Part shown: piece after piece, positions 1,019-12,799 of the stretch
Numbering within the stretch: the first letter of the stretch is position 1
Layout of the letters: each line of letters opens with the position of its first letter
Source of the DNA: Thioalkalivibrio sp. ALE31
GTDB lineage: Bacteria; Pseudomonadota; Gammaproteobacteria; Ectothiorhodospirales; Ectothiorhodospiraceae
Direction of reading: 5' to 3'
DNA: 64,000 bases
Assembly (NCBI RefSeq): GCF_000377405.1
Contig: NZ_KB905024.1
Coordinates: 124,001-188,000 of the forward strand
The notes under the pieces: model-generated
The model's input: only the letters and a program-made list of their open reading frames with translations
Database searches by the model: none
Told to the model about the DNA's origin: nothing
Position numbers and translations under genes: made by a program

Positions 1019-1139
1019 GACCCCCCGGGGGCGGCCCTGGCGGGGGGCGGGCTCACGGAGCAAGCCCACACCCACCCCCTCGCTCCAGCAGACCCCTTCC
1101 CGAAAATTTCCCGTGAAAATCGGGCAGGGGGGCAAAACG

Positions 1140-1175
1140 AAAAAGCCCCACCGGTGCGCCAACACCGGCGGGGCT
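1140..1175. promoter_or_regulatory. Strong hairpin in the integrase leader
   Basis: AGCCCC-A-CCGGTG (1144-1156) pairs with CACCGG-C-GGGGCT (1163-1175) around a six-base loop, flanked on the left by five A residues. Read on the minus strand it looks like a rho-independent terminator and could stop transcription leaving the island leftwards. Read on the plus strand it is a structured leader about 30 bases before the integrase start. No minus-strand gene is visible that would need it. Confidence 0.5.
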
Positions 1176-1205
1176 GCTCACCACCGAACCTGTGCGGAGG
1201 TTCCA

Positions 1206-2519
1206 ATGGCTACCAGCAATGCTACTCGCGTCCGGCTTACCCGTGAACGGCTGAAGGCGTTCACCTGCCCCCCTGAACGCCGCCAAGCCTTCTTGTGGGA
1301 CTCGGAGGCGCCCGGCCTGGGGCTGCGCGTCACCAAAGCCGGTGCGAAGGCGTACATTTTCCAATCCCGCCTACACGGGCGCTCCCTGCGCGTCACCATC
1401 GGCCCGGTGGGGCACTTCGAGACCGTTGAAGATGCCCGAACCGAGGCCCGGCGGCTGGCGGAGCTGGTGCGGCAGGGGGTGCACCCCGAGGATGACGCGA
1501 AGGCCAAGGCCGCCGAGGCGGAGGCCGCAAGGGCGGAACGCACCCGGGCCACGGTGACACTGGGAGATGCCTGGACGGACTACGTGGCCGAACGGTCGGG
1601 GGAGTGGAGCGAGGCGCACCGGCACGACCATGACCGCGCCATGACGGCACCGGGGCTACCCCGCCGCCGGAGCCGCCAGCCCACCACCGCGGGTGCGTTG
1701 TACAGCCTGCGAGGGGAGCGGCTGCGGGATCTCACCGCCGAGAGGCTGGCCCGGTGGATGGAAACCGAGAGCGCGAAGCGCCCCGCCGTGGCGGCCCGTG
1801 CCTTCCGGCTGCTGCGCACGTTCCTGAACTGGGCCGCCGAGCATCCCGACTATCGAGGGCTGGCGGACACTAGCGCGCTGCTGACCGGTGCGGTGCGGCG
1901 CAAGGTGCCAAGGCAGAAGCCGAGGGATGACGTGCTCCAGCGCGAGCAGTTGGCCCCCTGGTTCGAGGCGGTGCGACGGATCACCAACCCGGTGGCATCC
2001 GCCTACCTGCAAACGCTACTGCTCACCGGGGCACGGTCGGGGGAACTGGCCACCTTGCGGTGGGATGACGTGGATTTCCAATGGCGCGCCCTCACCATCC
2101 GCGACAAGGCCGAGGGGGAGCGCACCATCCCCCTCACCCCCTACGTGGCGGCCCTGCTGGCGGGGCTGCCCCGGCGCAATGGCTGGGTGTTCTCCAGTCC
2201 ACAAAGTGAGTCGGGGCGCATCGGAGCGCAGACGCGAGTGCACACCCGCGCCGTAGAGGCCGCCGGACTGCCCCCGGTGACACTGCACGGGCTACGCCGC
2301 AGCTTCGGCACCCTGTCCGAGTGGGTGGAGTGCCCGGTGGGGATCGTGGCGCAGATTCAGGGGCACAAGCCGAGCGCCATCGCGGAGAAGTATTACCGCC
2401 GCCGCCCCCTGGACCTGCTGCGGCAGTGGCATGTGCGCATTGAGGGCTGGATGCTGGAGCAGGCCGGAATGGGGCAGCCCGAGTACGGCACCGGGGAACG
2501 GCTACGGGTGGCGAAATGA
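1206..2519 (+). CDS. int: Tyrosine recombinase (island integrase)
   Basis: A 437-residue phage-type integrase. An N-terminal arm-binding domain of the DUF4102 type (about 10-100) is followed by a core-binding domain (about 110-215) and the catalytic domain. Catalytic residues visible are Arg in TGARSGEL (near 276), His and Arg in LHGLRRSF (near 360), His in IQGHK (near 386) and the nucleophile Tyr in AEKYYR (near 396). The ATG at 1206 is chosen because GGAGG lies six bases upstream and the N-terminus fits the family; longer in-frame starts reach into the arm repeats. It presumably integrates and excises the island at tRNA-Phe. Its stop overlaps the next gene by 4 bp. Confidence 0.93.
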   Translation: MATSNATRVRLTRERLKAFTCPPERRQAFLWDSEAPGLGLRVTKAGAKAYIFQSRLHGRSLRVTIGPVGHFETVEDARTEARRLAELVRQGVHPEDDAKAKAAEAEAARAERTRATVTLGDAWTDYVAERSGEWSEAHRHDHDRAMTAPGLPRRRSRQPTTAGALYSLRGERLRDLTAERLARWMETESAKRPAVAARAFRLLRTFLNWAAEHPDYRGLADTSALLTGAVRRKVPRQKPRDDVLQREQLAPWFEAVRRITNPVASAYLQTLLLTGARSGELATLRWDDVDFQWRALTIRDKAEGERTIPLTPYVAALLAGLPRRNGWVFSSPQSESGRIGAQTRVHTRAVEAAGLPPVTLHGLRRSFGTLSEWVECPVGIVAQIQGHKPSAIAEKYYRRRPLDLLRQWHVRIEGWMLEQAGMGQPEYGTGERLRVAK

Positions 2520-3193
2520 ACGAGCGCAATCTCCCCGAGTACGTCACACCGGCTGAGCTTCTCGAAGTGGTGGGTGATGACCTGGAGGCGCTGTGCTGGC
2601 TGCGCGGTTTGCTCCCAGAGAACAAGGCGGATGCTGCGGAGTTCTATCGCAAGTATTGGCCGGACGTGCTTCGCGGGTTCGAGGAGATGCGCCAACGCTT
2701 TGAGGGCGGGGAAAGTGCGGCACTGCTCGAAGCCATCGAGACGGCGGCGAGTGTGCGGGTTCCGCTACCCGAGTGGATTGCCGGTGGCTTCAAGCAGGCA
2801 TGGGGGCGTTACACCGAGGCAGAGGCACGAACCCTTGGGGAATCCTTTGGAGTGGAGCGGCCAAAGGGCTGGAATCAAACCAAGAACCGTCAACTGGGTT
2901 ACATGCCCCTGATCCAACGGCGCTTCGAGGCGCTCACGAAGGCTGGTCTGAAGACTGGGTTGAACGCGGGGCCATGGCGGACGGTTTACGAGCAGATCGC
3001 CGCCGAACTGGCGGACCCCGAAATGCTCGCGGACAAAGACAATCCTGCGCCGGACCCGGAGATGGCGGCCCTTTTTGCTCCGACCCCTGAAGGTGCCAGC
3101 GTTGGCGGACTGAAGCCGCTACACGTCTCCGCAACGTGGGTCAGGGACAACCGCGCGCCAGAACCGCACAGCACCCCCAAGCCGGACGACTGA
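2516..3193 (+). CDS. Unknown island protein, coupled to the integrase
   Basis: A 225-residue, mostly charged and helical protein with no membrane segment or signal peptide and no family I recognise. The N-terminal half is rich in Leu, Glu and aromatic residues (for example ALCWLRGLLPE). The middle contains a basic stretch, GWNQTKNRQLGYMPLIQRR, that could contact nucleic acid. The C-terminal 50 residues are Pro-rich and probably disordered. The ATGA overlap with the integrase stop indicates one message and coupled translation. A role in island control is possible from position only. Confidence 0.7.
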   Translation: MNERNLPEYVTPAELLEVVGDDLEALCWLRGLLPENKADAAEFYRKYWPDVLRGFEEMRQRFEGGESAALLEAIETAASVRVPLPEWIAGGFKQAWGRYTEAEARTLGESFGVERPKGWNQTKNRQLGYMPLIQRRFEALTKAGLKTGLNAGPWRTVYEQIAAELADPEMLADKDNPAPDPEMAALFAPTPEGASVGGLKPLHVSATWVRDNRAPEPHSTPKPDD

Positions 3194-3296
3194 CACCCAC
3201 CCGGCCTTTTCGGCATTTTCTCGAAACGTTCCGAAAGCCTCGCCAAGCACCGGTATGGATTCTGAATGCGTCACCCGAACAAACGGAGGCGCATTG

Positions 3297-3539
3297 ATGG
3301 ACACGCACACCCACCCCCTTGGTCTTTCCACCACCGAACTGGCCCGAAGCATCGGGCTTGCCCCTGACTCGATCCGCGTTCACCTCTGCCGCCGTGGCAG
3401 CTACTTCGGCCTGGTGCCAGACCGCCTTCCGAATGGTCGGCTGCTCTGGCCTGCCGACTCCCTGGAGCGGCTGAAGGCGAAAGCCGAGGCCATGCCGCCG
3501 CGCCCCGTACCGAGCCGCAAGGCCGCAGGGGGTGAGTGA
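3297..3539 (+). CDS. AlpA-like small HTH DNA-binding protein
   Basis: An 80-residue protein with a winged-HTH or MerR-like N-terminus (STTELARSIGLAPDSIRVHL, about residues 10-30) and a wing-like GRLLWPADSLERL. This is the architecture of AlpA/excisionase proteins, which in P4-like elements and phage-inducible islands activate excision or the replication operon. The ATG at 3297 has GGAGG eight bases upstream, whereas the upstream ATG at 3255 lacks one. Its stop overlaps the primase-helicase start region (TGATG), so the two are translationally coupled. An excisionase role is inferred. Confidence 0.6.
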   Translation: MDTHTHPLGLSTTELARSIGLAPDSIRVHLCRRGSYFGLVPDRLPNGRLLWPADSLERLKAKAEAMPPRPVPSRKAAGGE

Positions 3540-5782
3540 TGCTGGAGGAAAAGAGTGACTCCACCCCGGTGGGGGCCGGGAATGGAGTCGAAGCCAGCAC
3601 AGGGGGTGCGCTGAACTTCGAGGATACCACTGCCGCCCCGGTGGTAGTGAAGGCCGCCAAGCCGGACCCGGACAACATCCCCGAGGCGTTGAAGGCACTG
3701 CCGCACTGGGTGCCGTACCGGCGCCGTGAGAAGGGCGGCAAGGTCACGCCCTTCGGCCAACCGAAGCAGGACAAGGTCCCACTACAGCCGCGCCACCCCT
3801 TCGCGCCTGCCAGCACTGCCAATCCGGATCATTGCGGCAGCTTCGAGGAGGCCCGGGAAGCCCTGCGCCAATGCCCGCAGACCGATGGACTTGGGCTGGT
3901 GCTGACGCACGCCTGGCTGGACGCCCCCGACCTGGTGGCGCTGGACTTTGACGGCCTGCGCGACCCGCACACGGGGGAGATCGCCCCGGACAAACTGGCC
4001 GAATGGGAGACCATCAAGGCGGTCGGCAGCTACACCGAGGTCAGTCCGTCCGGCGAAGGCTTCCGCGTGTTCTGCTACGGGGGCGTTGGCGGCGCTTTCA
4101 ATCACGGAGGTGTGGAGGTATACCCGGCGGGCGGTGCGGCCCGTTTCGTGACCGGCACCGGGGCGCACGTCGAAGGCTTCCCCCTCGAGCCCCGGCCCGT
4201 GCACAACCTGGCCGAACTGCTGGCGACGTACCGCCCCGCTGAAAGACCCGAGGCGGGGACCGGGGAGGACTCCGGCCTGCCCAAGGCCCCACCGCAGATC
4301 CCCGGGGACGTGCCCGAGCGCACGGCGCTGGATCTGGCGGATGGATGGCTGCGCTTCCTGGAGGACTGCGACCAACCGCCGGAGCATTTCGAGGGCGACC
4401 GTTCCCGTGCGCTCCAGAGCCTCACCACCGCCCTGCTGGCAAAGGATCTGGAGCCCGCCGAGGTGCTGGGGGTGCTGAAGCACTCGGACGCTTTCCGGGT
4501 GGCGCTGGATCACCGGGGACAAAACGAGGCCAAAGCGGTGCAATACCTGTGGGACGGCATCCGGAAAGCGGCGGCCCGTAACCCCGGTGCCGTGGCGGTG
4601 GGCGAGGACTTTTCTGACCTGGATGCCGTGGAGCGGGAGGAGCGACCGGACAACCGGCCCACGTTCCGCGTGGTGCGCCTGGACGATCTGGAAAGCGCCG
4701 AGGCACCCGCGCCGAGGCATATCCTGTCGCCGTATATCCCCGCAGGGACCGTCACGCTGCTCGGGGCGCATGGTGGGGCGGGCAAATCGACGCTCGCGCT
4801 TCACCTGGCGGTCTGTGTGGCCTTGGGACGGCCTTTCCTGGGCTTCCCCGTGGAGAGGCGCCCGGTGCTGTTTTTCAGCGCCGAGGACGGCGCGGACGTG
4901 GTTCGCTGGCGACTCCAGCAGATCACGCGAGCGATGGGGGTAGACCCGGCGGAGTTGGCGGAGCATCTGAAAGTTCTGGACGCCACCGAGGGGGACCCGG
5001 TGCTATTCCGGGAGGTGTTCGAGGACGGGGCGCGCAGAGGCGCCACGACACCCGCCTTCAAGACCCTGGACCGGGAAGCGGTGGAGCACCGCGCGGGGTT
5101 GGTCATCATCGACAATGCGTCCGATACCTTCGACGCCAACGAAGTGGAGCGCGCCCGGGTGCGGGCTTACATGCGGGCACTGGCGGGGATGGCCCGGCGC
5201 ACCGATGGCGCGGTGCTGCTGCTGGCGCACGTGGACAAGAGCACCGCCAAGGCCAGCGGCAGCCGCCAAGGCAGCCCGGAGGGCTACAGCGGTTCCACCG
5301 CCTGGCACAACAGCGCCCGCTCCCGCCTGTTCCTGACCGCCAGCGGTGACGGCCTCACCCTGGAGCACCAGAAGGCCAACCTGGCGACGAAGGCGGCCCC
5401 GCTCGATCTCGTGTGGGAAGGCGGCCTGCTGGTCCCCCGCTCGGATTCCGAGTGGGTGGCGGAGGAGGCCGACCTGAACCGCCAGCAGGATGAAGAGGAC
5501 GTGCTGAACGCCATCCGCGCCGCGATGGACTCCGGGGAGGACATTCCCACCGGGCGCGCCGGCCCCGGCACCACCCACCACGTGCTGACCCGATACCCCG
5601 ACCTGCCGGAGCACTTGCGCGGGGGCGGAGGGAAGCGGCGCTTCTGGGAAGCCCTGGCCCGACTGGAGCGCGCCGGAAAGATCCGCCGGGAGGAGTACCG
5701 CAGTCCGCAGCGCAAGCCGAAAGAGCGATACGCGATCTGCGCCGGTTCGGAGCGCGCCGGTTCCGGGGAGGCAAGCGAATGA
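3536..5782 (+). CDS. Island replication protein: primase-polymerase-like N-terminus fused to RepA-type helicase
   Basis: A 748-residue protein starting at GTG 3536 or ATG 3539. Residues about 40-240 resemble AEP/NrS-1-like primase-polymerase domains: LVALDFDG supplies the acidic pair, followed by YTEVSPSGEGFRVF and ARFVTGTG. Where related proteins usually have His (SPSGxGxH) this one has Arg. Residues about 395-640 are a RecA/RepA-fold hexameric helicase with Walker A GAHGGAGKST (near 410), Walker B LVIIDNASD (near 523), a sensor LLLAHVDK and the finger-like GSTAWHNSARSR. The C-terminus is a small winged-helix-like region. It should initiate island replication at the iterons overlapping its 3' end. 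Confidence 0.8.
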   Translation: MMLEEKSDSTPVGAGNGVEASTGGALNFEDTTAAPVVVKAAKPDPDNIPEALKALPHWVPYRRREKGGKVTPFGQPKQDKVPLQPRHPFAPASTANPDHCGSFEEAREALRQCPQTDGLGLVLTHAWLDAPDLVALDFDGLRDPHTGEIAPDKLAEWETIKAVGSYTEVSPSGEGFRVFCYGGVGGAFNHGGVEVYPAGGAARFVTGTGAHVEGFPLEPRPVHNLAELLATYRPAERPEAGTGEDSGLPKAPPQIPGDVPERTALDLADGWLRFLEDCDQPPEHFEGDRSRALQSLTTALLAKDLEPAEVLGVLKHSDAFRVALDHRGQNEAKAVQYLWDGIRKAAARNPGAVAVGEDFSDLDAVEREERPDNRPTFRVVRLDDLESAEAPAPRHILSPYIPAGTVTLLGAHGGAGKSTLALHLAVCVALGRPFLGFPVERRPVLFFSAEDGADVVRWRLQQITRAMGVDPAELAEHLKVLDATEGDPVLFREVFEDGARRGATTPAFKTLDREAVEHRAGLVIIDNASDTFDANEVERARVRAYMRALAGMARRTDGAVLLLAHVDKSTAKASGSRQGSPEGYSGSTAWHNSARSRLFLTASGDGLTLEHQKANLATKAAPLDLVWEGGLLVPRSDSEWVAEEADLNRQQDEEDVLNAIRAAMDSGEDIPTGRAGPGTTHHVLTRYPDLPEHLRGGGGKRRFWEALARLERAGKIRREEYRSPQRKPKERYAICAGSERAGSGEASE

Positions 5783-5926
5783 ACACCGGGGGGCGCCAGT
5801 CTCTGCGCCAGTTCTGCGCGCGCCTTTCCCCCACACCCCCTGGGAACTGGAGCGGCGCAGGGGCGCCGCCCCTGCTCCAATTTGCGCCGGTTCCGAACTG
5901 GCGCAGAACTGGCGCAAACCGGCGCA
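5738..5926. repeat. Iteron array, putative replication origin of the island
   Basis: Seven copies of the 11-mer TGCGCCRGTTC occur here. Plus-strand copies are at 5738, 5753 (first base C), 5804 and 5883. Minus-strand copies end the array at 5895-5905, 5906-5916 and 5916-5926 (one mismatch), in near-perfect 11-bp tandem. A GC hairpin (5857-5864 with 5868-5875) lies among them, and a more A-rich stretch follows at about 6024-6050. Iterons directly beside a rep gene are the classic layout of a replication origin bound by the Rep protein. The repeats are seen; origin function is inferred. Confidence 0.65.
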
Positions 5927-6051
5927 GACGGTTCAAAGCCGATGCCCCCCGGTGTTGTATCCCGATTTCGGGCGCCGCCCCCGGCTGGGGTTTGGCCCGT
6001 GAACCCAGACACCGGAACCCCGGTGCAATCAAACCAAAAGAGGAAAACGCC

Positions 6052-6354
6052 ATGAACCACGAGTACCCACCTATCCGTCCCCAGAACCGCCGAGTACACG
6101 AGCCGCCGGAGGTCCGAGACCACCGCCGCGCTCGAGGCATGTTCTTCATGGTCTGGTGTCCCGAGACCTGGGCGCCCGTCTCGAATTACGGGGATGCGCA
6201 GGAAGCCTATCAGGAAGCGATGCGGCTGAAGATGCTGTACCCCGAGCAGGACTTCTACGTGATGGCCGCCATTGCCCGTTTCGAGGATTCGGGCTTTTAC
6301 ACAATCGACGCCCACGGGAAGCGGAAACGCGTAGACGAAGCCTGGAGGGTCTGA
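6052..6354 (+). CDS. Small unknown island protein
   Basis: A 100-residue soluble protein with an N-terminal Pro/Arg-rich segment and a compact core containing MFFMVWCPETWAPVSNYGDA and YPEQDFYVMAAIARF. I recognise no family. The ATG at 6052 is preceded by AGAGGA at 6039-6044; an in-frame start at 5779 would run translation through the iteron array in atypical Arg/Pro-rich sequence, so it is rejected. It lies two bases ahead of the TerS-like gene and is probably cotranscribed. Confidence 0.65.
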   Translation: MNHEYPPIRPQNRRVHEPPEVRDHRRARGMFFMVWCPETWAPVSNYGDAQEAYQEAMRLKMLYPEQDFYVMAAIARFEDSGFYTIDAHGKRKRVDEAWRV

Positions 6355-6356
6355 AG

Positions 6357-6806
6357 ATGGCAGCGAAACCCATAACCCGAGCCGCGCACGCGACCATCCG
6401 GAAGGCCGGAGGGGAAGCCTATGTGTTCGGGCAGGTGGCCGAGGGCCGGACGCTGAAGGCGATTGCTGAGGATCTGGGGATCTCCCGCCAGATCCTCAGC
6501 ACCTGGTGCAACCGCCCGCAGCGCAGGGACGCGCTCACCCGTGCGAGACAGGAGGCCGCCGGTGCTTTGATGGATGAGGCCCTGGCGATCACCGACAACG
6601 CCGAGGAGGACGCGACTGCGCTCCAGAAGGTGAAGCAGCAGGCTGACCTGCGTAAATGGCTGGCGGGCCGGTTGTCACCGCAGCAGTGGGGCGACTCCGG
6701 CCCCGGTGTACAGGTGAACATCGGGCAGCTTCACCTGGACGCCCTGCGCCACCAGCGGCCCGTGATCGACGTGAAACCGGAACCCGAGGGGGGACGGGAG
6801 GATTAG
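6357..6806 (+). CDS. Terminase small-subunit-like protein (TerS, Sf6 type)
   Basis: A 149-residue protein. A helix-turn-helix (LKAIAEDLGISRQILSTWCN, about residues 28-47) is followed by a long helical middle (ALMDEALAITDNAEEDATALQKVKQQADLRKWLAGRLSPQQWGD). This pattern is typical of Sf6-like phage small terminases that recognise packaging sites. No large terminase accompanies it. In phage-inducible islands a lone TerS redirects the helper phage motor to satellite DNA. GGAGGG lies seven bases before the ATG. The family call rests on motif memory, and a generic HTH regulator is the alternative. Confidence 0.6.
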   Translation: MAAKPITRAAHATIRKAGGEAYVFGQVAEGRTLKAIAEDLGISRQILSTWCNRPQRRDALTRARQEAAGALMDEALAITDNAEEDATALQKVKQQADLRKWLAGRLSPQQWGDSGPGVQVNIGQLHLDALRHQRPVIDVKPEPEGGRED

Positions 6807-6914
6807 GGGCGCAGTGACACCGGCGCGCCCCCGGTGCTACGTTGAAAACGCACCCGAGGCAGTTGCAGCTACCCCGGGCGCTTCCCACAACGTCACTGCA
6901 CAGGAGTAGACGCC

Positions 6915-7121
6915 ATGAGCAGCACCGATGCTATCACCCCCGCCGCGCACCTTCTCGACCTGGGGGAGGCGCGAGACCTGGCGCTTGAGATCCGAGCCGG
7001 GTGCAAGGCGATTGCCAGCCATACCGACCCCGACACCGCCGCACTGCTGAAGATGGTGGCGCATAGCGCCGACCGACTGGCGGGGGTGCTGGAGGAGGCC
7101 GCGCCGGAGATCCAGCCCTAG
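6915..7121 (+). CDS. Small helical island protein of unknown function
   Basis: A 68-residue acidic protein predicted to be almost entirely helical (LLDLGEARDLALEIRAGCKA and ALLKMVAHSADRLAGVLEEA). A good Shine-Dalgarno, AGGAG (6902-6906), precedes the ATG. No family is recognised. The two helices resemble small regulatory or dimerisation proteins of phages. About 100 bp separate it from the TerS-like gene, so it may have its own promoter. Confidence 0.6.
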   Translation: MSSTDAITPAAHLLDLGEARDLALEIRAGCKAIASHTDPDTAALLKMVAHSADRLAGVLEEAAPEIQP

Positions 7122-7132
7122 ACGGGAGCGGA

Positions 7133-7465
7133 ATGAGCCACGACCAGCGGCCACCAGTCGAAGACTTCGCGGACAAAGCGGCAGCTTTGCTGGTCTCCGT
7201 CGCCTTCGTCTTCGGCTGGCTATGGCTGGCGGGAGTGCTGGGGTATCAGCTTTGGCACTGGCTTCAGGAAGGGGAGTGGTTGCCGCTCCCGTTCCGGTTG
7301 GCGCTCGAATTCATTGGCCTGAACGTACCGGCCCCTGTGGAGATCGAGGGTTGGGCCGGTCTTTCTCGACTGCTGGAGTGGGCGATCAATCTGCCCATGT
7401 CCGTGATGGTGGGGCTGGCGGTGTTCGCGGTGGCGGTGCTGGTGAACGGGATGGTGCGGCGATAA
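7133..7465 (+). CDS. Small two-segment membrane protein of the island
   Basis: A 110-residue protein with two hydrophobic spans: about residues 20-42 (LLVSVAFVFGWLWLAGVLGY) and about 88-107 (MSVMVGLAVFAVAVLVNGMV). Both lie behind charged residues, so an inner-membrane location is likely. It is the last gene before the right-end arm repeats and may be an accessory cargo gene, for example superinfection exclusion, but nothing in the sequence shows this. It follows the preceding small gene by 11 bases. Confidence 0.6.
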   Translation: MSHDQRPPVEDFADKAAALLVSVAFVFGWLWLAGVLGYQLWHWLQEGEWLPLPFRLALEFIGLNVPAPVEIEGWAGLSRLLEWAINLPMSVMVGLAVFAVAVLVNGMVRR

Positions 7466-7499
7466 GCCCAGCGAACACCGGTGCCGATGAGGCGGCGTT

Positions 7500-7518
7500 G
7501 CTTACATAGTGCTTACAC
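7500..7518 (+). repeat. Right arm-type integrase-binding repeats
   Basis: GCTTACAT (7500) and GCTTACAC (7511) repeat the left-end motif with the same 11-bp spacing and the same orientation, about 57 bp inside the right attachment repeat. They are probable integrase arm sites. Confidence 0.65.
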
Positions 7519-7574
7519 GGAAGCGAAGGCTTGGAAGCAGGGGCGCGGCGGATCCCGCGTAAGCCTTTGAAAAC

Positions 7575-7626
7575 TAATGGTGGCCGGGGACGGAATCGAA
7601 CCGCCGACACGGGGATTTTCAATCCC
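7575..7626 (-). repeat. Right attachment repeat within tRNA-Phe
   Basis: This is the right copy of the 52-bp direct repeat, overlapping the 3' two thirds of the intact tRNA-Phe gene. The 3' part of the present gene was therefore most likely supplied by the island, restoring the tRNA upon integration, as tRNA-targeting elements typically do. Confidence 0.9.
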
Positions 7627-7653
7627 CTGCTCTACCAACTGAGCTACCCGGCC
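7578..7653 (-). tRNA. tRNA-Phe (GAA)
   Basis: The reverse complement folds into a 76-base cloverleaf beginning GGCCGGG, with D arm AGCTCAGTTGGTAGAGC, anticodon loop TTGAAAA (anticodon GAA), T arm GGTTCGATTCC and an encoded CCA end. It is intact and serves as the integration target of the island on its 3' side. Confidence 0.97.
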
Positions 7654-7754
7654 ATACTGCGGGGGGATTCGTCCTGCGGACGAAGGGCGGTATTAAAGCG
7701 GCCCGGCGCCGCCACGTCAAGCATGCCGGGCCGGTCGCCGCTGAAAAGCCCGGA

Positions 7755-8013
7755 TCAGGAGGCGTTCGGGTCGACGAAGCCTTCCGGCTTCTCGGAGCCT
7801 TCGCCGAACAGGAACTTTTCCATTTCCTCTTCCAGGAACTTGCGCGCCTTGGGATCGACCGGGGTCAGGCGGTATTCGTTGATCAGCATGGTCTGGTGGC
7901 TCAGCCAGGCCTGCCAGGCTTCCTTGGACACGTTCAGGTAGATCTTCTTGCCCATCTCGCCGGGATAGGGCGGGAAGTCCAGGCCTTCGGCCTCTTGCCC
8001 GAGTTTTACGCAG

Positions 8014-8030
<17 letters not shown>
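7755..8030 (-). CDS. yggX: Fe(2+)-trafficking protein YggX
   Basis: A 91-residue protein matching the YggX family, including the N-terminal [10 protein letters not shown] with its single Cys and the conserved LPFPG-like [13 protein letters not shown] and W-rich core. YggX protects Fe-S clusters and moves labile iron in the cytoplasm. It is cotranscribed behind mutY, with which it overlaps by 17 bp, the same order as in E. coli. MutY carries an oxidation-sensitive Fe-S cluster, so the pairing makes functional sense. Confidence 0.95.
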
Positions 8031-9072
<1,042 letters not shown>

Positions 9073-9123
9073 GGACGGACCGGGCCTGGCGGCGCCCGCC
9101 CGGGAGGCGGGCACCGGCGGTGA

Positions 9124-11304
9124 TCAGCGGCTGCGGAAGCGGTCCAGGAGCCGGTCGGACTCCTGCTCGATGCGCTCGCGGGCGCGCTCTTCTTCCTCGT
9201 CCAGGCGTTCGCGGACGCGTTCCTCTTCCTCGCGCACCCGTTCGCGGGCCTCGTCCTCGTAGCGACCGCGCAGGGCGTCCTCCAGGTCGAGACGGAAGCT
9301 CGGGTCGGTGAAGGTCCCGCTGATGCGGATGGGCAGCGTCACGCCGCGCAGGTCGTCCAGTTCACGGCCGCCCTGGCCTTCCAGCGTGCCTACCACTGTC
9401 GTGTTCACGCGGTAGTCGAGGCTGTCGTCGTTAAGGTCGGCCTGGCCTTCGCCGCGCACCCGCAGCAGGGGCGAGCTGGCGGCGAGGTCGTCGTTGCGGA
9501 CTACGCCGTCGCGAATGGTGAAGCTGCCGGCGAGTTCGCTGAAATCGGTCTGGTTGGGCTCGTCCTCTTCCAGCTGTTCACCGCGCAGGCGCGCCTCGGC
9601 GCGGCGGATGATCTGGGCCACGTTGATACCGCGCACCGCGCCGTCCTCGAAGCGCATGTTGCCGGAGCCGTTCAGGGCCCCTTTCAGCTCGCTCAGGAGC
9701 TCGCCGCGGGTGCTGATGTCCAGCTCCAGGTTGCCGGTACCCATCAACCGCGCGTCGTCGCCCTGGAAGTCCTCCAGCAGGGCGCCAATATCCAGGCCCT
9801 GCAGGTCGGCGGCCAGTTCGTAGCGCGGGGCATCGTGGCGGGCGTCCAGGCGCAGGCGGCTGGTCAGCTCGCCGTCATAGGCGGCGGCGTTCAGCGGCTC
9901 GATGTTCCAGTCGCCGGCCTCGCCCCGGATCTGCAGCTCGATGTTGCGCAGGACCATGCCCATCACGTCCAGGCGGTCCAACGCAGCGCGGCCGTCCACG
10001 TCGACGCTGCGCAGCGCCTCCAGCGGCAGCTCGATGGCGAGGTCCTCGTCGGCATCGCGTTCGCCGTTGCCGTTGTCGGTACGCGCCTCTTCCACCTCCG
10101 GCGGCAGGTAGCGGTCGAGGTTCAGGCGTTCGCCGGAGACATCGAAGGTGATCTTCGGGCGCTCACCGCGGCCATCCCAGCCGGCGGATCCGCTCAGCAT
10201 GGTGTCGTCCACGGTCACCAGGAACGGGGACATCTCCAGGGCCTGGAAGCTGCCGCTGGCCGAGAAATCGAACGCGACGCGCGCGAGGGCGTCGGGGTCG
10301 TTGGTCTGCGGCGCCTCCAGACCCAGATCGGTCAGCACGTCCTTCAGGTTGACGGTGTTGGTACGCATCTCGGTGCGCACCTGCGGCACTTCGCCATCCA
10401 GGTCGGACAGCTCGGCGAACCCGGTCAGACGCAGATCGGAGACACCCAGCGTCAGGCGCTCGAAGCGCAGGGTCATCGCGTCGGCCATCTCCAGCCCCAC
10501 GTCGCTCTCCAGCGTCATGCCGACGGCGCGCGGCAGGCCGCCGCCATCCAGACCCAGGGTCGCGTTCAGGCGGCGGACGGAATAGCGCTCGTTGAGCAGG
10601 TCGACATTGAGCAGGCCGCCCAGATCCAGGGCCAGCTCCACCGGCTCGGCCAGGTCGCCGCCCTCGGCACGCACGACCGCCTCCAGGTCGAGACGCGTCT
10701 CGATACCCGGGCGGAAGCGACCGACCTGCAGCTCGAACGGCTCCAGGGTCGCCTGCATGCCGGACTCGCGGTCATCCCAGTGCACTCGGGCGTTGGTCAG
10801 GGAGATCCCGGCCACGTCGATGCGCTGCAGGGCCAGACGGGTCTCGGTCTCGGTGCGCTCGTCGTCATCCGCGCCCACGGCCTCGTCGCGGGCGGCGCCG
10901 GCGTGATCCAGCAGGTCGTCCCAGTTGTTGCGGCCCTGTTCGTCGCGCGCCAGGTTCAGGCGCACACCGTCGGCCTCCACGCGCTGGACCTCCAGCTCGC
11001 GGCGCAGCAGCGGCATTACCGCGACCGCGACATCCACCACATCGACCTCGGCGAACGGCTCGTCGCCGAAGCCCTCGGCGTTGCCGAAGCGCACCTCTTC
11101 CAGGCGCAGCCCGAGGCTGGGGAACAGGGTCAGACCGATCGGCCCGGACAGGGTCAGTTCACGGCCGGTGGCCTCCTGCACCTCGGCCTCGATGCGCTCC
11201 TTGTAGTCATTGGCATCGAAGGTGACCAGCAGGTACGCGGCCACGATGATGGCCAGCAGGATCAGGACGGCAATCAGGCCCAGCAGGCGCTTGATCCATT
11301 TCAT
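9124..11304 (-). CDS. asmA: AsmA family protein
   Basis: A 726-residue inner-membrane-anchored periplasmic protein. It has one N-terminal transmembrane helix (residues about 7-28, [20 protein letters not shown]), then a long beta-rich AsmA N-terminal domain and a C-terminal AsmA_2 region with FRLDLEDAL near the end. The final 50 residues are an unusual run of Glu/Arg repeats ([19 protein letters not shown]), probably a charged helix or coiled coil. AsmA-like proteins are implicated in phospholipid transport to the outer membrane. Its start overlaps the moaC stop (ATGA), indicating cotranscription. Confidence 0.88.
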
Positions 11305-11789
11305 TCGGAATCTCCTTTCGGTTCGGCCCGCCAGGTGCCACTGCGGCCCCCGCGTTTCTCCAGCAGGCGAACACCATCAATTTGCATGCCGCGATCCACG
11401 GCCTTGCACATGTCATAGACCGTCAGCAGCGCGGTGGACACGGCGGTCAGCGCCTCCATCTCCACGCCGGTCTGCGCGTGCACCTCGCAGGTGGCCTGTA
11501 CGCGCACGGCGGTATCTTCCGTCTCCAGCTCCAGGGCCACCCGGGTCAGGCCGATCGGGTGGCACAGCGGGATCAGGTCGCCGGTCTTCTTGGCCCCCAT
11601 GATGCCAGCCACCCGGGCAATGCCGAGGACGTCCCCTTTCGCATGGCGGCCTTCGCGGATGCGCTGCAGGGTATCCGGCTGCATATGGATGCGCCCCTCG
11701 GCGACCGCCACGCGGTGGGTGACGGACTTTTCGCCAACATCGACCATGTGCGCATGGCCTTCGGCATCGAAGTGAGTGAATTCGTTCAT
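11301..11789 (-). CDS. moaC: Cyclic pyranopterin monophosphate synthase MoaC
   Basis: A 162-residue molybdenum cofactor enzyme that acts with MoaA to convert GTP to cyclic pyranopterin phosphate. Conserved segments include [42 protein letters not shown] with the catalytic Lys and Asp, and [12 protein letters not shown]. The start at 11789 gives the usual length; an upstream in-frame start adds 21 atypical residues. It is divergent from moaD-moaE, and the two share a 45-bp intergenic region. Confidence 0.95.
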
Positions 11790-11795
11790 GATGGC

Positions 11796-11801
11796 TATAA
11801 T
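11796..11801 (+). promoter_or_regulatory. Candidate -10 element for moaD-moaE
   Basis: A perfect TATAAT lies 34 bp before the moaD start in the short moaC/moaD divergent space. No good -35 is visible at 17 bp (TGAGTG), so this is a weak promoter call. Confidence 0.4.
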
Positions 11802-11834
11802 GCTTGACTCGCAGCCATGTTTACAGGGGCCGGA

Positions 11835-12068
11835 ATGACCGTACACGTTCACTATTTCGCGCGTCTGCGCGAGGAACTGGGCCGCCCGAACGAAGAGGCG
11901 GAACTACCCGCCGGCGAAACGACCGTTGGCGGGCTGTGGCAGCACCTCCATCAGGAGGCCCCGCCGGAACGCCTGATGGCCGCGGTCAATCAGGAACAGG
12001 CCAGCCTGGAGACGCCGGTGCGCGACGGGGACGAGGTCGCCTATTTTCCGCCGGTAACCGGGGGCTAG
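11835..12068 (+). CDS. moaD: Molybdopterin synthase sulfur-carrier subunit MoaD
   Basis: A 77-residue ubiquitin-like protein ending in the required VTGG, whose C-terminal Gly is adenylated and thiocarboxylated to donate sulfur to the pterin. The ATG at 11835 gives the standard N-terminus [16 protein letters not shown]; a start six codons upstream is in frame but atypical. It is followed one base later by moaE, its partner subunit. Confidence 0.93.
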
Positions 12069-12069
12069 G

Positions 12070-12507
12070 GTGGCGGTCGAGATCCACACCGACGACTTCG
12101 ACCCCTGGGAGATCGTCCGGCAGGCCGAGACGGCCATCCCCGCGAACGCGCGTGGCGCCGCCAGCGTGTTCGTCGGCCGCATGCGCGATTTCAACGAAGA
12201 CGAGGACGTGACCGGGCTGTTCCTGGAGCACTACCCGGGGATGACCGAGCGCGAGCTGGAACGCATCGTCGCCGAAGCCGAGGCGCGCTGGCCGCTGCTG
12301 GGCTGCCATGTGGCCCACCGCGTGGGCGACGTGCGCCCCGGCGACGCCCTGGTGCTGGTGGCGACCTGGTCGGCCCACCGCGTGGCCGCCCGCGACGCCT
12401 GCAGCGACATTCTGGAACGCCTGAAGCACGAGGCCCCGTTCTGGAAGCGCGAGACCCTCACCGACGGCACCCAGCGCTGGGTGGAGAAAAACACCCCGGG
12501 CTTCTGA
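12070..12507 (+). CDS. moaE: Molybdopterin synthase catalytic subunit MoaE
   Basis: A 145-residue large subunit that, with MoaD, inserts two sulfurs into cyclic pyranopterin. Conserved features are GAASVFVGRMRDFNE, LEHYPGMTERELERI, VAHRVGDVRPGDA and the C-terminal active-site region LKHEAPFWKRE with two Lys. It starts at GTG 12070, right behind moaD, so translation is likely coupled. Confidence 0.94.
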   Translation: MAVEIHTDDFDPWEIVRQAETAIPANARGAASVFVGRMRDFNEDEDVTGLFLEHYPGMTERELERIVAEAEARWPLLGCHVAHRVGDVRPGDALVLVATWSAHRVAARDACSDILERLKHEAPFWKRETLTDGTQRWVEKNTPGF

Positions 12508-12514
12508 ACGCCCT

Positions 12515-12598
12515 CCTGTAGGAGCCTGCCTGCAGGCGAAGCCCCTGCCAAAGCCGGACACGGGCAGGAGCATTCGCCTGCAAGCAGGCCCCTACAGG
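12515..12598. repeat. REP-like palindromic element 1
   Basis: An 84-bp imperfect palindrome with end arms CCTGTAGG / CCTACAGG and inner arms related to GCCTGCAGGCGAA / TTCGCCTGCAAGC. The layout closely parallels the element at 12718-12799, with a central GC-rich core in opposite orientation. It lies between the convergent moaE and HtrA-protease genes and could also act as a terminator. Confidence 0.7.
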
Positions 12599-12645
12599 GG
12601 ACGGGCCAGGGCCTCGGGATTCCCGCCCGCATACGTCCCTACACC

Positions 12646-12689
12646 CTCGTCAACCCGGCCGCGGCGAAGCGGAGAACCGGGGTGACGAG
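12646..12689. repeat. Short inverted repeat between the two REP-like elements
   Basis: CTCGTCAACCCGG (12646-12658) pairs with CCGGGGTGACGAG (12677-12689), 12 of 13 positions, around an 18-base spacer. It is flanked on both sides by the two larger palindromes. Function is not evident. Confidence 0.5.
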
Positions 12690-12717
12690 ACATGGGGGTT
12701 GCGCGATGGAAGCATTC

Positions 12718-12799
12718 TTGTGGGAGCGGGCTTGCCCGCGAAGCCCCCGCCCGCGTCCGGCTTTGGCAGGAGCATTCGCGGGCAAGCCCGCTCCCACAA
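12718..12799. repeat. REP-like palindromic element 2
   Basis: An 82-bp element whose 25-bp ends (12718-12742 and 12775-12799) are perfect inverted repeats beginning TTGTGGGAGCGGGCTTGCCC. The TGTGGGAGCGGGCTTGCCCGCGA motif type is widespread as extragenic palindromes in Pseudomonas and related gammaproteobacteria. The core between the arms is an inverted version of the core of element 1. Confidence 0.8.

Follow-up and report, generated by a model that had tools for sequence, protein, structure and literature searches.

A predicted iteron origin of replication overlapping the 3' end of a primase-helicase gene in a satellite-like island of Thioalkalivibrio sp. ALE31

Introduction

A small integrated island of Thioalkalivibrio sp. 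ALE31 carries a primase-helicase gene (rep) that runs out into a cluster of short repeats, and the question raised by this locus is whether the cluster is the replication origin of the island or has some other function. The window, which is the whole stretch of DNA analysed here, comprises 64,000 nucleotides (bases 124001-188000 of contig C5) of the 2.77-Mb genome. The original prediction read the repeats as an iteron origin at the 3' end of rep. Our survey supports this reading, since arrays recur at this position behind the rep genes of divergent relatives, and the comparative evidence, drawn from sequences, is strong. We propose that positions 5738-5926 are very probably the replication origin of a 6.75-kb satellite-like island, with the product of the overlapped gene as its initiator.

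Results

The island and its genes

Exact 52-bp repeats at 820-871 and 7575-7626 enclose 6755 bp, giving an island of about 6.8 kb. Its main features outside the repeat cluster are listed below with window coordinates.

820-871, no strand: attL, an exact 52-bp copy of the 3' part of tRNA-Phe, identical to 7575-7626
7575-7626, no strand: attR, overlapping tRNA-Phe (7578-7653, - strand)
1206-2519, + strand: tyrosine integrase (Phage_integrase 9.2e-15, Arm-DNA-bind_3 1.4e-12), start picked by eye within a longer ORF
3255-3539, + strand: small protein, AlpA-like by eye only, without family match at E<=0.1
3536-5782, + strand: rep (primase-helicase), AAA_25 1.7e-38, with PDB sequence matches, models and structure searches described below
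6052-6354, + strand: small gene after the putative origin, start by eye, without family match at E<=0.1
6357-6806, + strand: terminase small subunit (TerS), Sf6 type (PF20901 2.7e-16; phrog_1482 4.4e-15)

Eight ORFs between the att copies were scanned. The integrase, rep and TerS genes were recognised, the other five had no family above the cut-off, and none of the eight was identified as a capsid, tail or large-terminase gene. Judged by its gene content, the island looks like a phage satellite, for which a helper and packaging are putative.

Thioalkalivibrio sp. ALE14 (G017), of the same genus, is a close relative by its rep gene, and its island also sits at tRNA-Phe. Compared with the window island it has about 1 kb extra directly after the TerS gene (L009 10298-11338), likely a cargo slot. 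Outside the left att site of the window island, positions 131-692 hold a pair resembling a RelE-like toxin (TIGR02385 8.2e-8) and an HTH antitoxin.

The Rep protein

Residues 76-208 of Rep matched the primase of phage NrS-1 (PDB 6a9w/6k9a) with an E-value of about 3e-5, and residues 388-513 matched RSF1010 RepA (1g8y) with E 8.8e-8, or 4.5e-29 when a six-sequence profile was used. The model of the whole protein had a mean pLDDT of 66, with most of its confident regions in the helicase and C-terminal parts; the best structural match of the model was RepA. When the last 114 residues were modelled alone (mean pLDDT 77), helices and a two-strand wing-like hairpin were obtained. Foldseek with this model returned no match at E<=1e-3, and a second structure search gave a best Z of 7.9, with many winged-helix domains among 50 rows. 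Based on these models, the C-terminus (about residues 635-735) is likely, though not proven, to be a winged helix.

Full-length relatives of Rep were rare. Among the 47 genomes of the family, which were also the order-level search set, four matched with the window genome included, and only ALE14 did so over the whole length. At class level, 3 of 369 genomes matched at E<=1e-30, again including the window genome. Matches were also obtained to 93 phage and 101 plasmid records, none of them over more than 80% of the length of Rep. Against viral contigs, the window Rep alone as query gave no match and an alignment query was needed; searches with two other individual Rep proteins yielded no sequence besides the query itself. 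The 5' end of rep (window 3501-3700) shows 69-77% identity to ALE14, compared with 99% immediately upstream and 85-99% downstream; an exchange of the N-terminus of Rep is possible.

The repeat array

Seven copies of TGCGCC[A/G]GTTC, four direct and three inverted, were confirmed in the 189 bp of 5738-5926, five being exact and two having one mismatch. They fall into a left set (5738-5814) and a right set (5883-5926).

5738-5748, + strand: iteron 1, exact, within rep
5753-5763, + strand: iteron 2, one mismatch, within rep
5804-5814, + strand: iteron 3, exact
5844-5854, - strand: degenerate iteron, two mismatches
5843-5878, no strand: G+C-rich hairpin between the iteron sets, inverted repeats with arms 5854-5865 and 5867-5878
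5883-5893, + strand: iteron 4, exact
5895-5905, - strand: iteron 5, exact
5906-5916, - strand: iteron 6, exact
5916-5926, - strand: iteron 7, one mismatch, sharing one base with iteron 6

A second match with two mismatches starts at 5849 (- strand). As predicted, the hairpin is present and the last codons of rep double as iterons, the copies at 5738 and 5753 lying inside the reading frame 3536-5782. The description of the copies as a near-perfect tandem with a period of one helical turn applies to four of the seven, at 5883-5926, because only these last four are close-packed: their start-to-start steps are 12, 11 and 10 bp, whereas the other steps are 15, 51 and 79 bp. The A-rich stretch said to adjoin the array exists, but it lies about 100 bp downstream, where on visual inspection it coincides in part with the ribosome-binding site of the gene that follows.

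Clustered short repeats beside a likely initiator gene, as in iteron origins, are present at this site. An A+T-rich unwinding region beside the repeats, which is usual but not universal in iteron-type origins, was not found: the G+C content is 0.65-0.75 between and around the iteron sets, and the lowest value, 0.53, occurs at 6010-6069, about 100 bp from the array.

With at most one mismatch, the word occurs 7 times in the 189 bp (0.027 expected) and 9 times in the rest of the 64 kb; the corresponding Poisson P of about 2e-15 is flattered, the word having been picked for its clustering. A word-blind scan, in which the largest 11-mer family with at most one mismatch was sought in 510 overlapping 250-bp windows, ranked the array first in the 64 kb, with 6 copies in a single window and 3 or fewer in windows elsewhere. 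The expectation that the 11-mer would occur only here failed, as a motif scan of the 2.77-Mb genome gave 35 exact matches, 5 in the array and 30 single ones scattered elsewhere, no two of these within 1.5 kb. It is the cluster, not the word, that is unique to the array site. A search of 5400-6400 for structured RNA gave a single sub-threshold match to a microRNA family (22 bits, cut-off 100), and a nearest-DNA search of 5700-6060 among phage records gave no match.

Arrays after rep in relatives

The ALE14 island keeps all seven iterons with the same order, orientation and mismatches, and its iteron stretch is 97.9% identical to that of the window, compared with 91.0% for rep up to the iterons. 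This conservation is weak evidence by itself, because the neighbouring 6052-6354 gene is 99.7% identical (304/305 alignment columns). Two more distant loci of the same family carry other words at the same place after rep, TGCACAAATGC five times in L014 and GGGCAACGGGC five times in L015. L012 has three copies of another word within the 3' portion of rep, and no clear array was seen at the rep end in L013.

Two sets of loci were then compared. The first consisted of 80 viral loci together with the window, L009 and L012-L015, and the 81 of these 86 with a complete rep end formed 37 clusters at 70% identity. The second came from later searches and eight class-level loci, and was restricted to clusters without a first-set protein; one cluster lacked room. 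An array was defined as four or more copies of the same 11-mer between -60 and +240 of the rep stop. In the first set, an array followed rep in 17 of 37 clusters, against 0/37 upstream of rep, 0/37 mid-gene, 13/1416 other 300-bp windows and 0/185 shuffles. The second set gave 20/36 after rep, 0/32 upstream and 9/834 in other windows. Together, 37 of 73 Rep clusters have an array just 3' of rep, usually of another word, and 0/69 have one upstream; the clusters are not fully independent, since L158, L168 and L169 of the second set share the same or nearly the same word, L169 (150 residues) being too short for clustering. No array of four or more copies was found in the other 36 of 73, which include all eight class-level loci (L101-L108).

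Steps between neighbouring copies were 10-13 bp in 58 of 152 cases, with a method that admits none below 10. Copies start inside rep in 5 of the 37 array-bearing clusters; the physical fusion of origin and rep that had been predicted thus recurs in relatives but is a minority feature. Iteron similarity tracks the C-terminal 110 residues of Rep (Mantel rho 0.21, reached by 0/2000 permutations), and the value for the helicase part was somewhat lower (rho 0.15, 24/2000 permutations), both values being small. These results are a new demonstration that the position of the array is kept while its sequence changes after divergent rep genes. The surveyed relatives are mostly viral contigs, some of them with head genes, therefore the module is no hallmark of satellites.

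Several of these loci showed further features. L014 (G045:C1:456000-474000) has at about 3777-12731 a related island beside tRNA-Leu, with, by eye, an integrase, an AlpA-like protein, a separate primase, a prohead protease and a major capsid protein besides the RepA-type rep with iterons; in this gene content it appears to resemble a capsid-forming PICI. L015 (G012:C3:1-14000) belongs to another genome of the same genus, and its island at 1030-7761 contains an integrase (by eye) and the rep with the GGGCAACGGGC array; a large-terminase-like gene (phrog_2, 7.7e-22) was also found, with a tmRNA nearby at 8981-9342. At 5419-5476 of L012, three copies of CAAATGTTACC stand at the start of a 435-aa ORF, perhaps an integrase with its arm sites.

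A paired C-tract box

One element between the two iteron sets was absent from the original prediction.

5828-5840, + strand: paired C-tract box CCCCCACACCCCC, C5-N3-C5; relatives have similar boxes in this region

There are 9 C5-N3-C5 places in the 2.77-Mb genome, of which the window box is one and another lies in the integrase gene of the island. L120 has the same 13 letters as CCCCCACACCCCC, on the opposite strand, in its corresponding region.

The box was first spotted by eye while reading 16 regions of the first set and then counted in both sets with a loose pattern (C4+ N2-6 C4+, either strand, -60 to +300 of the rep stop). In the first set it was present in 18/37 regions, against 74/1163 other windows and 2/36 upstream regions, and in the second set in 15/36, against 39/834 and 3/32, respectively. 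Two narrower patterns were counted at -60 to +260. C5-N3-6-C5 was found in 24/73 regions, with 24 matches in the remaining 759,966 bp of these loci, and the strict form C5+ T0-2 ATA [A/C]0-1 C4+ in 15/73 regions, one of them (L021) inside the rep gene, with 0 matches in the other 759,966 bp. The window box, with its core ACA, misses the strict pattern and fits only the looser form (24/73). Because the strict and C5-N3-6-C5 patterns postdate both sets, only the arrays and the loose pattern are tested cleanly by the second set. In the 24 clusters with C5-N3-6-C5, the best repeat family (2-7 copies) lay on both sides of the box in 12 and on one side only in 12, so flanking of the box by iterons is not general. 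At least one inverted copy was present in 11 of the 12 clusters with repeats on both sides.

Searching from the DNA, a 17-mer form of the box gave 32 viral stretches, 11 of them with a RepA-type match within 600 bp (on the opposite strand in L268), and a 16-mer form gave 85, 5 with such a match. Six of these 16 RepA-linked stretches belong to contigs that the two survey sets had included before, and the pairs L174/L199 and L267/L273 seem to be near copies. Pfam analysis of 9 neighbouring ORFs added RepA-type genes at three more 17-mer matches (L263, L281 and the fragment L279) and revealed VapE-type genes beside the box at L198, which has CCAACCT-type repeats on both sides of the box, and at L270, which has no such repeats. 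The remaining matches were screened for RepA-type genes only; most 16-mer matches are unexplained and may be of chance origin. With these two VapE-type proteins as queries 34 loci were found, and the 33 readable ones gave 17 arrays, 11 loose boxes (-60 to +420) and 2 strict boxes, counts that are not de-duplicated and have no control; both strict boxes are on the contigs that had led to this group. The box is not tied to one helicase, and its strict form is rare in the VapE-type group. At L176 4200-4600 (- strand), a C-tract box and GTTGTAACG-type repeats come after an 849-aa gene whose only match, to AAA_16, is below the cut-off; the gene may belong to a third class of replication genes that share this layout.

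A literature search with literal spellings and words, covering titles and the starts of abstracts, found no description of the C-tract box, nor did the available text of PMC7145576, PMC7557826 and PMC8628076 contain it; it may still be published. We tentatively suggest, as a real possibility still short of a probable one, that the box (C5+ - T0-2 ATA - C4+, and variants like C5-ACA-C5) forms a hitherto undescribed core element of phage and satellite origins, standing among freely changing iterons and replacing the AT-rich melting region. Since it is common to replicons with different helicases (RSF1010 RepA, VapE) and primases (PrimPol, Toprim), a host factor may recognise it, or its effect may come from the structure of its DNA.

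Other explanations of the repeats

The site may be an origin that is recognised as a single strand folded into a cruciform or stem-loop, and not as double-stranded iterons; this has been proposed for plasmid pRN1, whose essential origin is a stem-loop 3' of the primase-helicase gene (PMC4234260). The strand 5735-5930 does fold far better than its shuffles (-65.5 kcal/mol, shuffle mean -48.9 kcal/mol, z -4.64, 0/200 shuffles as good). However, such a fold follows from having inverted iterons, and the related arrays L023, L075, L083 and L092 are all-direct, therefore no such fold is possible there. This explanation, which overlaps the best one, is unlikely.

The repeats could instead be operators that autoregulate rep or control the following genes, and not an origin. 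Their position directly ahead of the 6052 gene would suit this, and the Rep proteins of plasmids frequently employ iterons in replication and autoregulation alike. Against this, a pattern scan of 5500-6400 found neither a terminator nor a sigma-70 promoter-like site (other promoter types were outside the scan), and the relatives have arrays of at least four copies before rep in 0/37 and 0/32 cases, making a purely regulatory function quite improbable.

Packaging sites of the pac/cos type, bound by the TerS of the island, would fit the closeness of the TerS gene (6357-6806), which starts 430 bp downstream of the repeats, and the binding of TerS proteins to short repeats in the vicinity of their own genes. 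The arrays, however, follow the end of rep, and no TerS was found among 20 proteins picked downstream of rep at 15 array-bearing loci (1 large terminase, 2 head proteins, 4 other named functions), a soft test as 13 of the 20 had no match. We consider packaging sites very improbable. Chance or coding-driven repeats without function, to which the 30 single exact matches elsewhere in the genome would point, have a negligible probability in view of the word-blind scan, the clustering count and the recurrence of arrays in both sets of relatives, the recurrence already disfavouring chance.

Discussion

An iteron origin at the 3' end of rep, with Rep as its initiator, is our preferred explanation of 5738-5926. 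The repeats and their place, the ends of the island, the primase and helicase parts of Rep and the recurrence of the array, often with a C-tract box, were obtained by computation. The support for a Rep-iteron mechanism is positional and comparative; binding, box melting, priming, excision and packaging are inferred. In the proposed mechanism, the island would excise at its tRNA-Phe att sites, and Rep would bind the TGCGCC[A/G]GTTC iterons through its C-terminal winged helix. Oppositely oriented iterons on either side of the C-tract box would load Rep hexamers face to face, the RepA-type helicase part would open the DNA in between, at the box and the hairpin, and the NrS-1-type primase part would make the first primers.

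An iteron origin linked to rep is an ordinary kind of object that has an unusual form here. PICI and P4-like satellites are already known to have iteron origins next to rep, phage P4 having its own iteron origin; the new points are the C-tract box, the missing AT-rich core, and arrays that keep their position and change their sequence. For a small satellite-like island rich in G+C, the likely origin is thereby narrowed to less than 200 bp, and a rule for finding origins in related phages and satellites is obtained, which is to seek an array of an element-specific word just 3' of a RepA-type rep gene. Within origins that otherwise change fast, the C-tract box is a candidate for a fixed point; what recognises it, and whether it replaces the AT-rich melting region, are questions that can be tested.

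Among known systems, the origins of phage-inducible chromosomal islands (PICIs), which occur in Gram-positive and Gram-negative bacteria, have two iteron sets that always flank an AT-rich region (PMC6092414, Fig. 2 legend), and the pri-rep-ori of EcCICFT073 sustains a plasmid (PMC6092414). Like PICIs, the window island is integrated and has an integrase with att repeats, a primase/Rep, a TerS (present in some PICIs) and an origin directly 3' of rep with two iteron sets (PMC6092414); its eight ORFs include no full capsid and tail gene set, terS being allowed in PICIs. It differs in that the DNA between the sets is 65-75% G+C and has the paired C-tract box and hairpin in place of the AT-rich region, and for this reason the island is not filed as a PICI. 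The comparison is with the published layout, and the AlpA candidate at 3255-3539 has no family match. As an analogy, the view that the window origin would work like a PICI origin stands.

PrimQH proteins combine an AEP primase, a P-loop ATPase (RepA, DnaB, VirE/PF05272 and others) and a C-terminal winged helix, and are found in integrated elements (PMC5862659). The window Rep likewise joins a primase, a RepA-type helicase and a predicted C-terminal winged helix in one protein of an integrated element, and the C-tract box was met here beside both RepA-type and VapE-type (PF05272) genes. The difference is that the window primase matches the NrS-1 primase, which is grouped with the PrimPol proper family (PMC5862659); the available text of that paper does not contain the word iteron. 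The IncQ plasmid RSF1010 (RepA, RepB', RepC, oriV) shares the helicase family (1g8y, profile E 4.5e-29) and iteron-driven initiation (PMC4234260), but it uses three separate proteins where the window island has one. The P4 alpha protein differs by its Toprim primase, and pRN1 by its SF3 helicase and by a stem-loop described without iterons in the available text (PMC4234260). Both the alpha protein and ORF904 of pRN1 nevertheless unite, as Rep appears to do, primase, helicase and a C-terminal DNA-binding part in one protein, and the origin of pRN1 likewise lies 3' of its primase-helicase gene (PMC4234260).
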